Below are positions 26,208-31,391 of a stretch of DNA of 64,000 nucleotides, piece after piece. The notes beneath the pieces are model-generated. The model searched no databases and was not told where the DNA came from. It saw only the letters and a list, made by a program, of their open reading frames with translations. Origin of the DNA: an uncultured Treponema sp. GTDB lineage: Bacteria; Spirochaetota; Spirochaetia; Treponematales; Treponemataceae. A program made the position numbers and the translations under genes. The stretch lies in contig CASGBA010000001.1 of the NCBI GenBank assembly GCA_949299755.1, forward strand, positions 124,001 to 188,000, read 5' to 3'. Within the stretch, counting starts at the first letter, position 1; each line of letters starts with the position of its first letter.

Positions 26208-27068
26208 TCAGCAGTTCCCCAGAAAAACATCAGGTAAATAAATGCGGGCCGCATCCGCAAGTTCATGCATTACTCCGATGGGAGTGGGGTTTGTATCCGT
26301 CATTTTCCATCGGGGAAAAAACCTTGTAATATGCAACGCAATGGAACCGTCAAAACTTTTCAGGGTGGAAAGCCAGGAAGCCATTTCCTTTATTTCCCGG
26401 ACAGAGTCATTGAATCCGGGGACAATGAGGGTTGTTATTTCCACATGGCATCTTTCCGCGCATTTTTCTATCGACTTTACAACGGAGTCAAAATCACCGC
26501 CTAAAAACGAATAATGCTCTTTTGTAAAACATTTGCAGTCAATATTCATCGCATCTATGAATGGAAGTATTTCATCCAAAACCTGAGACGAAACACAACC
26601 GTTTGTCACGATGACATTTTTCATTCCGTATTCACGGACCAGTTTTGAAACATCCCGGACATATTCCCATCCTACTAATGGTTCATTGTATGTGTAAGCC
26701 ACGCCGATGTTATCCCGGGACCGGAGGGAATAAGCATATTCCGCGATGTTTTCAGGCGGGAAATATCTCACATATTCGCGTTGAAAATCCTGTCCGCCGT
26801 CCGCGCAAAAATCATTCTGGGATATTTCGTGATTCTGGCAGAAAGCGCAGCGCATATTGCATCCGAAACTCCCCACGGAAAAAACAAACTTATCAGGGTA
26901 AAAAAGAGCCAAAGGTTTCTTTCTTACGGGATCAAGACTTAAAGAAGTCAGCATCCCATAGTTTTTTGCGGTAATCCTGCCGTCCTTATTCATCCTTGCA
27001 CGACAGAAACCTGTGGAACCTTCCTCAAGTCTGCAATTATGAAAACAACATCCGCATTCAACAACCAT
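26208..27068 (-). CDS. amrS: AmmeMemoRadiSam system radical SAM enzyme
   Basis: The radical SAM Cys triad is readable in GCNMRCAFCQNH (CxxxCxxC). The N-terminal extra Cys cluster, CGCCFHNCRLEEGSTGFCRAR, and the stretch VAYTYNEPLVGWEYV identify the AmmeMemoRadiSam/PflA-like group (TIGR04337-type). The protein is an S-adenosylmethionine-dependent radical enzyme whose substrate is unknown. I chose ATG 27068 over a TTG at 27086 that has no ribosome-binding site. It follows the MEMO-AMMECR1 gene by about 20 bases on the same strand, which is the defining context. Pyruvate-formate-lyase activase is a look-alike, but no glycyl radical enzyme is near. Confidence 0.88.
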   Translation of the reverse strand: MVVECGCCFHNCRLEEGSTGFCRARMNKDGRITAKNYGMLTSLSLDPVRKKPLALFYPDKFVFSVGSFGCNMRCAFCQNHEISQNDFCADGGQDFQREYVRYFPPENIAEYAYSLRSRDNIGVAYTYNEPLVGWEYVRDVSKLVREYGMKNVIVTNGCVSSQVLDEILPFIDAMNIDCKCFTKEHYSFLGGDFDSVVKSIEKCAERCHVEITTLIVPGFNDSVREIKEMASWLSTLKSFDGSIALHITRFFPRWKMTDTNPTPIGVMHELADAARIYLPDVFLGNC

Positions 27069-27089
27069 AACAACTACCCGCCGCAAAGG

Positions 27090-28520
27090 CTATCTGTGCC
27101 GCACAACCTCAAAGCGCATCAGTCCAGGGTTTTCGGCAGGATTTATTCCGCCTTTACGGCAGGCGATTTCTATCTGCTGCTCAACACTTGTCACGGAATC
27201 CAAATCAGGAAGAAGGAGACCCCGCCGGTTTCCTTTAAAACAAATGACACCGTATTTTTTCACATCAAGACATGAAGGGGAATCAATTAATTCAGGTTCA
27301 GACAAAACATCCACATTGTATACGATTTTATCCAATTCGATGCTTTCCACAGGATCAAATCTTGGATCGTTTGCAGAAGCGCTCACAGCGTTATTCATTA
27401 TTTCTTCCGCAATGGAATCCGTACACGGGGCCGTTGTTCCTATACACCCTCGCAAATCATCCTCTTTATGCAAGGACACAAAAACACCGGCCCTCCGTTC
27501 CATCATTTCCGGAGGAAGGCTTAGGACATCCCCGCCGGGCGAAACCGCGCGAATTTCTTTTCCCTTTTTTTCCAAGGAAGGTTTTTTGCCGTAAACGGCG
27601 TATGCTTCCACCGTCATCCGTGCAAGTTTTACATATGCATCTTCTTTTTTCCTGACTTTGTCCAATTCCATGCGTTTTTCTTTTTCGTGGCAATCAAGAA
27701 AATTACGGGAAGCGTCATCTCCAACAGGATAAAAAGAACATATACCGTATCCGACACCGAAGGTGCCCTCGTGGGAAAGTGCGGAAGACTTGACCGCTGT
27801 GCAATCAAAAACACCTGCCATCATGACAAAAGAACGGTGTCCGCATTCAGCCGCATTGTCACAAAAAGAAGGTGAAAAAGAAAAAAGCTTTCCGAAATCA
27901 CCTGTACCCATAACCTGCATTATTTTTTCATCATATTCGGGTCCGTCAGGATTAAAACCATAGGGTCCGTCCGGTTTTAATTTGTGGGATAAATCCCCGC
28001 TGGCTATATACACAGCGTTAATATCTTCTTCTTCAACAGCTTTTTTAATACACATGCCCAAACGGTAATGGTCGCTTAAAGGCAGACCGGAAAGCCCTAT
28101 CCTGACAAGTTTGTATTTTGTGTATTTTTTATTCACAAAATAAAGGGGAACCATAACACCGTGATCCAAACTTTTGTCTTTTTCGCCAAGAACACCGGCG
28201 GAGATTCCGGCTGCTTCCGCATACATACAAATCAAACGCACAAGGTCCGTATCATAATCCTGGCGGAATGAAACCTGGGGAGCGCCGAATCTTCCTAAAT
28301 CACCTTTACCTTCCAACCCCGGAGAAACATGGAAATAATCCGCATACATTACGGAATGAGGTGAAGAAATAATTATCGTATCAGGTTTTATTTTCGCAAT
28401 TTGGTCTGCAACTTCATTATAAGCAGAAAGAGTTTTTTTGATTTTATTTTCTTCACCCCTACCCACTTCATGTACGGCTAAAGGAGGATGAGGAACCATA
28501 AAAGCAGCTCGTATTCCCAT
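27090..28520 (-). CDS. MEMO1-like / AMMECR1 fusion protein (AmmeMemoRadiSam A+B)
   Basis: 476 residues in two domains. Residues 1-275 are a MEMO/extradiol-dioxygenase-class III-like domain, seen in MVPHPPLAVHEVGRG, IISSPHSVMYADYFHVS, DHGVMVPLYFV and IASGDLSHKLKPDGPYGF; the His residues could bind a metal. Residues 295-476 are an AMMECR1 domain with the hallmark DDLRGCIGTTAPC and ANDPRFDPV. Function of both domains is unknown in bacteria; human AMMECR1 and MEMO1 are separate proteins. GAGGCGG is upstream of the ATG at 28520. It is transcribed with amrS. No exported signal is present, so the system is cytosolic. Confidence 0.9.
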   Translation of the reverse strand: MGIRAAFMVPHPPLAVHEVGRGEENKIKKTLSAYNEVADQIAKIKPDTIIISSPHSVMYADYFHVSPGLEGKGDLGRFGAPQVSFRQDYDTDLVRLICMYAEAAGISAGVLGEKDKSLDHGVMVPLYFVNKKYTKYKLVRIGLSGLPLSDHYRLGMCIKKAVEEEDINAVYIASGDLSHKLKPDGPYGFNPDGPEYDEKIMQVMGTGDFGKLFSFSPSFCDNAAECGHRSFVMMAGVFDCTAVKSSALSHEGTFGVGYGICSFYPVGDDASRNFLDCHEKEKRMELDKVRKKEDAYVKLARMTVEAYAVYGKKPSLEKKGKEIRAVSPGGDVLSLPPEMMERRAGVFVSLHKEDDLRGCIGTTAPCTDSIAEEIMNNAVSASANDPRFDPVESIELDKIVYNVDVLSEPELIDSPSCLDVKKYGVICFKGNRRGLLLPDLDSVTSVEQQIEIACRKGGINPAENPGLMRFEVVRHR

Positions 28521-28596
28521 TTTTTCCGCCTCATTTTTTTATTTACCGTATTTTAATTCCTATTTGCGGTATTCTCAAGTAAAAAACGTGAAAAAA

Positions 28597-28621
28597 AACG
28601 TGCGGGAAAGAACCGCACGTT
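28597..28621 (-). terminator. Rho-independent terminator downstream of the DAACS transporter
   Basis: AACGTGCGG pairs perfectly with CCGCACGTT across a 7-base loop; on the minus strand the stem is followed by a T8-rich run. It isolates the transporter from the MEMO-AMMECR1 gene. Confidence 0.85.
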
Positions 28622-28671
28622 CAAGCATTTTTTTTGTTTCATAATTTTATGGATTGCCGAATAAAACCATA

Positions 28672-29907
28672 TCAAGCGCCTGCGCCTAAATCAATTTCCG
28701 GCGGTTGCTCGCTGATGCCATGTTTCTCAGCATATCCTGTAAGAATAAGGGTAAGGGCGCCGTCGCCGGTAACGTTACAGGCTGTTCCGAAAGAATCCTG
28801 GAGGGCAAAAATAGTAAGCATTAAAGCCGTACCTGCCTCATCAAAACCAAGAACGCTTATTATAAGACCGAGTGACGCAACGACTGTACCGCCGGGAACA
28901 CCGGGCGCACCGATTGCAAATACCGCAAGCAGGATGCAGAAAAGAATCATCGTGGACAATTCGGGGAAAGAACCGTAAAGGATTTTGGAAACAGCCATAA
29001 CAAAGAATGTTTCCGTTAAAACAGATCCGCAAAGATGAATATTAGCGAAAAGCGGAATACCGAAATTCGTCAGGTCGCGGCGCAGCGGCGGTTCTGATTT
29101 TTTGGCGCATTCAAGGGCAACGGAAAGAGTCGCGGCGGAAGACATTGTTCCGATGGCGGTGAGATATGCAGGCCCGTAATTTTTCAGGACGGCAAAAGGA
29201 TTTTTCTTTGAATAAGCGCCCGCTACTCCGTACAAAAGGGCAAGCCAAATATAATGTCCGATAATTACAATCACAATTATTGAAATAAACACAGGCAGCT
29301 GCTTTGCGATGGTTCCCTCATACGACAGGAGAGAAAAAGACGCAAAGATGTAAACAGGCAGCAACGGAATAACGAAATGCTCAACAATAGCGAGGACAAG
29401 TTTCTGGAATTCTTCCAGAATGTTGATAATCGCTTTTGTCTTTACCCATGCCGCGGTGAGACCAACAACAATCGAAAGAACCAAAGCCGACATAACAGAC
29501 ATGACGGCAGGTATATCCAGACGGAACAAAAGGGCGGGAAGTTCTTTCATTCCTTCAGTGCTGGAGCTGATATTCAGGAACGGAAGAATAACATATCCGG
29601 CAACCATCGAAGCAAATGCCGCCAGAACAGAAGAGACATAGGCAAGAATAAGCGCTACACCGAGCATCCTTGACGCACTGCCGCCAAGCCGGGTGATGGA
29701 AGGCGCGATAAAACCAATGATAATCAACGGCACACAGAAGTTAATGAATTGGGAAGCAATATACCTGAAAGTAACAAGAACATTCAAAATACCCCGTGAA
29801 ATCGAAGATACATCTGTAGAACTCAGAATCATTCCGATTACGATACCAAGAGCAACGCCGACAATAAGCCTGAACGGCAAGCTTTTGAAGATTTTTCCTG
29901 AACCCAT
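28672..29907 (-). CDS. Dicarboxylate/amino acid:cation symporter (DAACS family)
   Basis: 411 residues with eight or so membrane helices and two re-entrant loops, as in GltP/SstT. Family patches: FINFCVPLIIIGFIAPSITRLG, TAIGTMSSAATLSVALECAKK, GTACNVTGDGALTLILTGYAEKHG. AAGGAGG lies 6 bases ahead of ATG 29907. It uses Na+ or H+ to bring in an amino acid or dicarboxylate. The neighbour upstream is a cysteine-desulfidase-type enzyme, so serine or cysteine uptake is likely but not proven. A strong terminator follows. Confidence 0.9.
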   Translation of the reverse strand: MGSGKIFKSLPFRLIVGVALGIVIGMILSSTDVSSISRGILNVLVTFRYIASQFINFCVPLIIIGFIAPSITRLGGSASRMLGVALILAYVSSVLAAFASMVAGYVILPFLNISSSTEGMKELPALLFRLDIPAVMSVMSALVLSIVVGLTAAWVKTKAIINILEEFQKLVLAIVEHFVIPLLPVYIFASFSLLSYEGTIAKQLPVFISIIVIVIIGHYIWLALLYGVAGAYSKKNPFAVLKNYGPAYLTAIGTMSSAATLSVALECAKKSEPPLRRDLTNFGIPLFANIHLCGSVLTETFFVMAVSKILYGSFPELSTMILFCILLAVFAIGAPGVPGGTVVASLGLIISVLGFDEAGTALMLTIFALQDSFGTACNVTGDGALTLILTGYAEKHGISEQPPEIDLGAGA

Positions 29908-30035
29908 AATTCCTCCTTGGATTTTCAGGTTTAAACAAAAACGTAAACAGAGTATAAACCCGGTTTCGCATTACTATGCCGGACAGCTCCGGATTAAAAT
30001 AACATTCGGAACTGCAACATACAAACTGAAATTAT

Positions 30036-31340
30036 TCAACAACCCATATTGACATCAGCCTTTCCTGTCATAACATTAAGAATTTCCTTGTCGGTTGTTT
30101 TCATTCCAACCCTGCCGATATATCCCATGTTTTTTATGGTCTCTTCAACAGAATCTTCGATAAAACCTTCGCCGTCTTTGAACTGTTTGTTTTCAATCCC
30201 CATGTAGTGGGCCAAAAGAGCCGCATGAACGGAAGAAGCTATCTTTGCGGCGCAACTGGGTTTTGCACCGTCACAAACAATGCCTCCCACATTACCCAAA
30301 GTATTTATTATTGTTCTGGAAATATGTGGATACTGTCCGCCATACATATAAGTAATGGCAGCCCCGGCCCCGCAAGCCGCACTCACAGCCCCGCAAAAAG
30401 CGGAAAGGCTTCCGATAAAATATTTCAGATGAAGGGAAATCAAGTTACTTAAAACAAGGGCGCGGTATCTTTTTTCAGGAGAGACATCCCATTTTTCAGC
30501 AAATTCCAAAACAGGAAGGGAAACAGTTATACCCTGGTTACCGCTTCCGGAATTTATTACCACCGGCAGAATGCAGCCTCCCATCCTGGCATCGGAACCT
30601 GCCGCAGCCCTGGCACAAGCCCTTGTTTTCGGATCATTACCCCAAACGGAAAGCAAGGTCTTTCCGACTTGTGCACCCCATGGATTATCAATACCTTCCC
30701 TGGAAATCGATGAATTCATTTCAATTTGTCTGTCCAAGAGTTCCTTCACGTCTTCAATTTTAACTGTATCCGCGAATTCGATTATTCCTTTAACATTAAG
30801 CTTCGATTTATCGTAAAGGGGATCATCAGCGCCAGAACCGGGGGAAGCGGGCTTACACAAAAGAACTTCACCGTTTTTTTCGATGGAAGAAATATTAGTG
30901 TGGTTTTCCGTTATTGTGACGGAAGCATAATCATTGCCCTTTGAAACAAAAGCTTTAATATACAAATTGGGCACATCCTCCGCAAAAGAGTAAGAGCAGA
31001 ATCCAGACTTGACCAGCTCCTGGGTTTTTTCCCTGTCGCTGTCTGTCACTGTTTCAAGAACCTCAAGCTCCTTATCAGGATTTCCGCCCACAATTCCCAA
31101 GACGGCGGCAACTTCAATCCCCTTTTGTCCACCGGAAGCGGGAACAATAACACCTTTCACATTCTTTATAATATTTCCGCTGCATTCAATTTTAACCTTA
31201 TCCGGAAAAACACCGAGAACACCGGTCGCCTTTGAAGCTGCGTAGGCAATTGCTATAGGTTCCGTGCATCCGAGGGCCGGAACCAACTCATGATTCAAAA
31301 TAGTTATATAAGTATCATAAAGTTCCTTTGAAAAGGGCAT
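30036..31340 (-). CDS. cyuA: L-cysteine desulfidase / serine dehydratase-like (CyuA, UPF0597)
   Basis: 434 residues from the ATG at 31340 (GGAGG 5 bases upstream; the frame extends to 31373 without a better site). The N-terminus SKELYDTYITILNHELVPALGCTEPIAIAYAASKA is the UPF0597 hallmark, and CDGAKPSCAAKIAS and NSGSGNQGITVSLPVL near the C-terminus are the conserved Cys and Gly-rich segments that bind an iron-sulphur cluster in this family. CyuA converts cysteine to pyruvate, ammonia and sulphide in E. coli. Serine as substrate cannot be excluded. It lies 128 bases upstream of the DAACS transporter on the same strand, so a shared transcript is possible. Confidence 0.87.
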   Translation of the reverse strand: MPFSKELYDTYITILNHELVPALGCTEPIAIAYAASKATGVLGVFPDKVKIECSGNIIKNVKGVIVPASGGQKGIEVAAVLGIVGGNPDKELEVLETVTDSDREKTQELVKSGFCSYSFAEDVPNLYIKAFVSKGNDYASVTITENHTNISSIEKNGEVLLCKPASPGSGADDPLYDKSKLNVKGIIEFADTVKIEDVKELLDRQIEMNSSISREGIDNPWGAQVGKTLLSVWGNDPKTRACARAAAGSDARMGGCILPVVINSGSGNQGITVSLPVLEFAEKWDVSPEKRYRALVLSNLISLHLKYFIGSLSAFCGAVSAACGAGAAITYMYGGQYPHISRTIINTLGNVGGIVCDGAKPSCAAKIASSVHAALLAHYMGIENKQFKDGEGFIEDSVEETIKNMGYIGRVGMKTTDKEILNVMTGKADVNMGC

Positions 31341-31391
31341 ACAAACCTCCATCGGAAGGAATTCATCCGGCATAAATAAACAGACATATTA

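Follow-up and report, generated by a model that had tools for sequence, protein, structure and literature searches.

An AmmeMemoRadiSam-type gene pair with a LigB-type domain in the place of MEMO in an uncultured Treponema sp.

The window, a stretch of 64,000 nucleotides from a contig of an uncultured Treponema sp. (CASGBA010000001.1, positions 124,001 to 188,000), contains on its reverse strand a gene encoding a LigB-AMMECR1 fusion protein, followed downstream by a gene encoding a radical SAM protein (Table 1). The distance from the stop codon of the fusion gene to the start codon of the radical SAM gene was 3 nt when the latter was read from the TTG and 21 nt when it was read from the ATG at position 27068, this ATG being the likelier start because the protein of the congener, the closest relative, begins there. 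This spacing is in line with the tight operon described in the initial annotation. Upstream of the fusion gene we found a strong terminator-like hairpin that ends the preceding transporter gene and then a promoter-like site, and the pair therefore looks, as far as its sequence tells, like a separate bicistronic transcription unit, promoter matches overall being no more frequent here than in shuffled sequence. The gene downstream of the radical SAM gene lies on the opposite strand. The upstream neighbours (28672-31373, reverse strand) encode a sodium:dicarboxylate symporter (PF00375) and a protein of the serine-dehydratase-alpha type (PF03313), perhaps pairing the uptake of cysteine with a desulfidase; they were kept in the congener only and were rejected as part of the unit, given the terminator in between and their lack of conservation. 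A repeat search of the region returned only short, chance-like repeats, and the AlphaFold models of the fusion and radical SAM proteins were confident (mean pLDDT of 91.8 and 91.0, respectively).

Table 1. Location of the genes, domains, motifs and signals of the LigB-AMMECR1/radical SAM pair in the window, and of membrane protein genes at three exported-type loci.
Feature	Location	Strand	Description or basis
LigB-AMMECR1 fusion gene	27090..28520	-	476 aa; ORF list, profile matches, alignment of 44 homologues
LigB-type domain, residues about 1-265	27726..28520	-	N-terminal; PF02900, class III extradiol dioxygenase-like, 158.7 bits
E225-C226, 'ECG' motif	27843..27848	-	Glu aligns with LigB/APD ligand, Cys with MEMO C244
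AMMECR1 domain, residues 297-472	27105..27632	-	C-terminal; PF01871 135 bits; TIGR04335 113.9 bits, cut-off 99
LRGCIGT signature of AMMECR1 domain, residues 356-362	27435..27455	-	Sequence; no variation in alignments of 9 and 44 homologues
Radical SAM gene	26208..27086	-	292 aa from TTG; ATG at 27068 likelier; TIGR04337 207.1 bits
CxxxCxxC (C76, C80, C83)	26838..26861	-	SAM-binding [4Fe-4S] motif; sequence; invariant
CxxCxxxCx9C (C11, C14, C18, C28)	27003..27056	-	N-terminal; candidate auxiliary Fe-S or Zn site; invariant
Promoter-like TTGAGA-17-TAAAAT, 5' of fusion gene	28550..28578	-	Consensus match; no excess over shuffles
Intrinsic terminator-like hairpin, end of upstream transporter gene	28596..28622	-	10-pair stem and T tail
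PF01564 membrane protein gene	L205:4906-7101	+	
PF01564 membrane protein gene	L207:5060-7276	-	
PF01564 membrane protein gene	L210:4602-6830	-	

The initial annotation had described the first gene as a fusion of MEMO to AMMECR1. The fusion and its AMMECR1 half, including the LRGCIGT signature, were confirmed, but the identity of the N-terminal half as MEMO was not: this half scored far above the curated cut-off of PF02900 (158.7 versus 26.3 bits) and remained below those of both MEMO models, PF01875 (19.0 versus 27 bits) and TIGR04336 (18.5 versus 26 bits). In the sequence alignment, its residues H11, H55 and E225 corresponded to H13, H62 and E251 of 3vsg_B, the beta subunit of 2-amino-5-chlorophenol 1,6-dioxygenase. 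The latter three residues are the iron ligands of 3vsg_B, and human MEMO1 binds iron via H49, H81 and C244 (PMC11081632). When profiles were compared, the 'CG' of MEMO aligned with C226-G227, directly after E225, and the LigB-type domain was matched to spirochaete MEMO proteins with 97% probability over 244 columns, in agreement with the reported superfamily relationship between LigB and MEMO (PMC7694686, PMC11081632). From these alignments we infer the putative roles of E225 and C226 with respect to the metal.

E225, C226 and G227 did not vary among nine diverse fusions, nor in another alignment, of 44 homologues, whose residue numbers are lower by one as it omits the initial Met; H120, H179 and C226 were also invariant in the aligned homologues, and across the 44 the same held for the LRGCIGT signature and for the key residues of the LigB-type and AMMECR1 halves. 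By sequence comparison, then, the N-terminal domain is a LigB-type relative of MEMO that sits in MEMO's slot. The initial annotation had considered that the gene might turn out to belong to an unrelated dioxygenase family; LigB is indeed a dioxygenase family, but not an unrelated one.

In the radical SAM protein we recognised both the CxxxCxxC motif and the additional N-terminal cysteine cluster that had been noticed before, all seven cysteines being invariant across 39 homologues. The protein matched TIGR04337 over residues 9-280 with 207.1 bits, 13 bits under the curated cut-off of 220 and 152 bits above the next family, which means that, of the three models by which the initial annotation had proposed to identify the system, TIGR04335 was matched above its cut-off, TIGR04337 slightly below and TIGR04336 below. 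The shortfall fits the missing C-terminal tail, the protein of the window being a short form that ends in GNC without the zinc-ribbon-like extension. Every LigB-type radical SAM protein examined ended at or just past the GN motif (GNI, GNV, GNC and, once, GNL), and the CxxC...CxxC tail, absent in the LigB-type, was present in 13 of the 18 MEMO-type sequences (counted by reading the printed C-termini) and in all nine exported ones. A rule by which short radical SAM proteins would occur only with LigB was nevertheless rejected, as the other five MEMO-type proteins and that of genome G011 were short too. The LigB-type sequences did not form one group in the radical SAM tree, suggesting that the partners have not always moved together. 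An antiphage defence role of the viperin type gained little support: the only match was a weak and generic one (28 bits to pVip), far below that to TIGR04337 and of the kind that any member of the radical SAM superfamily would give.

LigB-AMMECR1 fusions are common: related stretches in the genome collection numbered at least 587, and the best 80 of them came mostly from Lachnospiraceae and other Clostridia and in a few cases from Treponema. The radical SAM gene was adjacent in 69 of these best 80 loci (66 downstream and 3 upstream), and six of nine loci without it at that place had an over-cut-off radical SAM protein elsewhere in the genome. Within flanks of up to 10 kb, no other neighbour family was found in more than eight of the 80 loci, and a conserved substrate gene was seen neither there nor, beyond within-genus synteny, in the spirochaete relatives; the initial annotation had likewise reported no obvious substrate gene nearby. 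Extra genes lay between the fusion and radical SAM genes in two Treponema loci (L094:11438-12406 + and L175:7174-8139 -), one of them, in L094, resembling an adenine-type DNA methyltransferase.

In the window's family, AMMECR1 and TIGR04337 occurred together in 16 of 36 genomes and were both absent from the other 20 (Fisher p 1.4e-10, uncorrected for kinship), the two genes being unlinked in three of the 16 (G016, G032 and G033). The association was also nearly complete in the 198 Spirochaetota genomes, 106 of which had both, nine AMMECR1 only, four the radical SAM protein only and 79 neither (Fisher p 2e-39, again uncorrected for kinship). AMMECR1 may act without the radical SAM protein, since these nine genomes of the phylum, and G043 and G049 within the order, have AMMECR1 with no radical SAM protein detected. 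Spirochaete and Clostridia sequences were interleaved in the AMMECR1 tree, which suggests that the gene has been transferred between gut anaerobes.

No MEMO was found anywhere in the host's own genome when it was searched with TIGR04336 and PF01875, and most of the LigB-type relatives also lacked a full MEMO. In the family to which one Butyrivibrio relative belongs, 60 genomes gave only five Memo matches (26.8-44.5 bits), all of them in frames of 456-476 aa, as long as the fusion itself; a stand-alone MEMO was therefore not observed in these 60 genomes. The operon of G011, on the other hand, had the arrangement AMMECR1-radical SAM-MEMO, with a MEMO protein of 240.9 bits against TIGR04336, whose ICG aligned with the ICG of human MEMO1, and with no LigB at the locus. 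The AMMECR1 tree separated the LigB-partnered from the MEMO-partnered clades at 100/100, and the AMMECR1 of G011 fell on the LigB-partnered side, outside the LigB group (group support 88/86). LigB and AMMECR1 were separate adjacent genes in the relatives G012, G019 and G039, and MEMO-AMMECR1 fusions adjoined the radical SAM gene in other spirochaete families. The simplest reading of these sequences, in which the evidence for the exchange of partners comes from the single genome G011, is that a LigB-type domain replaced MEMO and was then fused to AMMECR1; alternatively, G011 might have gone back to MEMO later. Such a natural swap implies that the LigB-type and MEMO domains probably do the same job.

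Other MEMO-related proteins were seen in the same order. Treponemataceae relatives had lipoprotein-like ones located apart from the AMMECR1 locus (L085-L090), and the MEMO proteins of other families (L065, L068, L070, L071 and L082) were without the SSDxxH-type motif, replaced for example by STNFAGH, TTNVSAH or SCNLSC, which suggests degenerate active sites.

Apparently exported AmmeMemoRadiSam systems were found in several Spirochaetota families (L204-L223, e.g. L205:2229-4915 + and L208:6510-9437 -). At these loci, true MEMO-AMMECR1 fusions started with a signal sequence of the lipoprotein-like or Sec-like kind, and the adjoining TIGR04337 proteins had an N-terminal R[RK]x[FLI][LIVT] motif and a hydrophobic stretch in 16 of 20 cases, these 20 loci having been picked for their long reading frames and the signals being called by this simple rule instead of a dedicated signal-peptide predictor. 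The same Tat-like rule was satisfied by none of 24 LigB-type and none of 19 other MEMO-type radical SAM proteins. Many of the genomes with the exported form also held a signal-free copy. A third gene, usually directly downstream, encoded in 16 of the 20 loci a multi-spanning membrane protein that carries a spermidine/spermine-synthase domain (PF01564), the domain having been tested on three of the 16 proteins (Table 1). In the titles and abstracts that we found, a Tat-exported radical SAM enzyme was not described; if true, the location of such an enzyme beyond the cytoplasm would be highly unusual, and the exported form looks more surprising than the pair in the window. At L224, L225, L230, L231 and L232 we observed a divergent family consisting of AMMECR1 only, in which the N-termini are signal-like and VRGC[YF]G replaces LRGCIG.

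The pair in the window is almost certainly a self-contained cytoplasmic system of the AmmeMemoRadiSam type, of a LigB subtype. The best explanation overall, which we put forward tentatively and with somewhat less than even confidence, combines this classification with two-step chemistry on one shared substrate, and it is favoured because of the constant association of the genes, the interchangeable iron domain and the lack of a third gene. The LigB-type, AMMECR1 and radical SAM domains would form one enzyme, in which AMMECR1, as a holding or catalytic hub, would keep the substrate in place and the radical SAM subunit would begin a radical reaction on it. A second step on this substrate, independent of oxygen, would then fall to the LigB/MEMO-type domain with its Fe(II) site (H11, H55 and E225, with C226 alongside). 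The proposed division of labour between the radical SAM protein and the LigB/MEMO-type domain is itself a tentative suggestion, well short of an even chance. As the pair has no further gene for a regular companion, its substrate is probably a general metabolite or macromolecule. Neither cytochrome bd nor haem-copper oxidases were found in the host's own genome; this argues for oxygen-independent chemistry, although a use of O2 is not thereby disproved. The host is seemingly an anaerobe. It is possible, although doubtful, that the MEMO slot holds an interchangeable catalytic iron site working independently of O2 with the radical SAM protein, and that the E225-C226 LigB form is the enzymatically intact version of a site which in human MEMO1 has become vestigial or changed.

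The main rival to this two-step chemistry is that the radical SAM enzyme modifies AMMECR1 itself, for example at the Cys or a Gly of LRGCIGT, the LigB-type domain then using or reading the product. In favour of such a reaction are the glycyl-radical activases, to which the radical SAM protein is most closely related among characterised enzymes (PFL activase in the PDB) and which modify a glycine of a partner protein, the tight pairing of AMMECR1 with the radical SAM gene, the invariance of LRGCIGT and the lack of a further conserved neighbour. However, LRGCIG was kept where no radical SAM protein was detected (G043, G049, G158, G264, G284 and G301, some of these assemblies being incomplete), so its presence is independent of this enzyme and its conservation gives no support to a need for targeting by it. 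Haloferax volcanii, used as a control, also has AMMECR1 without a TIGR04337 radical SAM protein, and in Methanosarcina acetivorans, another control, AMMECR1, MEMO and the radical SAM family were all found. We regard self-modification of AMMECR1 as unlikely. The relationship to the activases also raises the question of whether the protein simply activates a glycyl-radical enzyme, a doubt already expressed in the initial annotation. The activase models gave weak matches, the best of 54.7 bits against a cut-off of 174, far from the score with TIGR04337, and no PFL-type glycyl-radical enzyme (PF02901) was found in the host's own genome, which is 99% complete (the anaerobic ribonucleotide reductase was outside this search). 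On these scores and this absence we rejected the activase identity, and an activating role is largely refuted and hardly credible.

The remaining readings start from the iron site. Human MEMO1 has been proposed to handle iron or copper or to guard against oxidants, and the pair could do the same, with the radical SAM protein in a supporting role, as the LigB-type domain has a site matching the one by which MEMO1 binds iron (PMC11081632); a SAM-cleaving enzyme would nevertheless be out of place in a metal chaperone and no metal transport or stress gene was conserved in the neighbouring loci, which makes this function quite improbable. That the LigB-type domain is an ordinary O2-dependent ring-cleaving dioxygenase of aromatic catabolism is very improbable: despite the PF02900 match and the full His-His-Glu triad, no catabolic gene was conserved nearby, the fusion to AMMECR1 and the pairing with a radical SAM gene are non-catabolic features, and the lack of cytochrome bd and haem-copper oxidases makes O2-dependent ring cleavage unlikely as the normal reaction.

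Both AMMECR1 and MEMO1 have been linked to disease in humans, and the two-gene form found here, with a MEMO-equivalent that has a complete dioxygenase-type iron site and is fused to AMMECR1, and with its own radical SAM protein, is a small, expressible object on which the activity of the whole family could be tested. The initial annotation saw in the pair its best candidate for undescribed biology in the window, which was right as regards the unsolved chemistry but too strong otherwise: the AmmeMemoRadiSam system is a named NCBIfam set, databases already annotate parts of the pair, and the fusion is common. The association of AMMECR1, MEMO and the radical SAM protein is cited in a passage of PMC7159879 that refers to Burroughs 2019, and in the full-text literature the name of the system appeared in five papers, once in each, while AMMECR1 and radical SAM occurred together in one paper.

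Compared with the AmmeMemoRadiSam system (TIGR04335/TIGR04336/TIGR04337), the pair in the window is alike in its AMMECR1 domain over the cut-off, in a radical SAM protein matched over most of its length and in genes that are adjacent and co-occur; it differs in that protein B (MEMO) is missing and a LigB-type domain fused to AMMECR1 takes its place, and in that the radical SAM protein falls below the cut-off of its model and lacks the zinc-ribbon-like tail. With the class III extradiol dioxygenases (LigB, PF02900; PDB 3vsg) the N-terminal domain shares the domain family and the aligned H-H-E ligands, but unlike them it is fused to AMMECR1, is paired with a radical SAM protein, has an invariant Cys after the Glu and belongs to a host that is seemingly an anaerobe. 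MEMO1 and MEMO (PF01875; PDB 3bcz, 7kq8) have in common with it the superfamily, the 'CG' corresponding to C226-G227 and the partners, whereas the window domain fails both curated models and has a Glu beside the position of the Cys ligand of MEMO. The spirochaete MEMO-AMMECR1 fusions (L191-L223) also have a domain of the dioxygenase superfamily ahead of AMMECR1 and an adjoining TIGR04337 protein; theirs, in contrast, is a true MEMO, and they have signal peptides, a long radical SAM protein and a third, membrane protein gene. The pair represents a form of a known system, by no means rare, in which one defining component, MEMO, is replaced.
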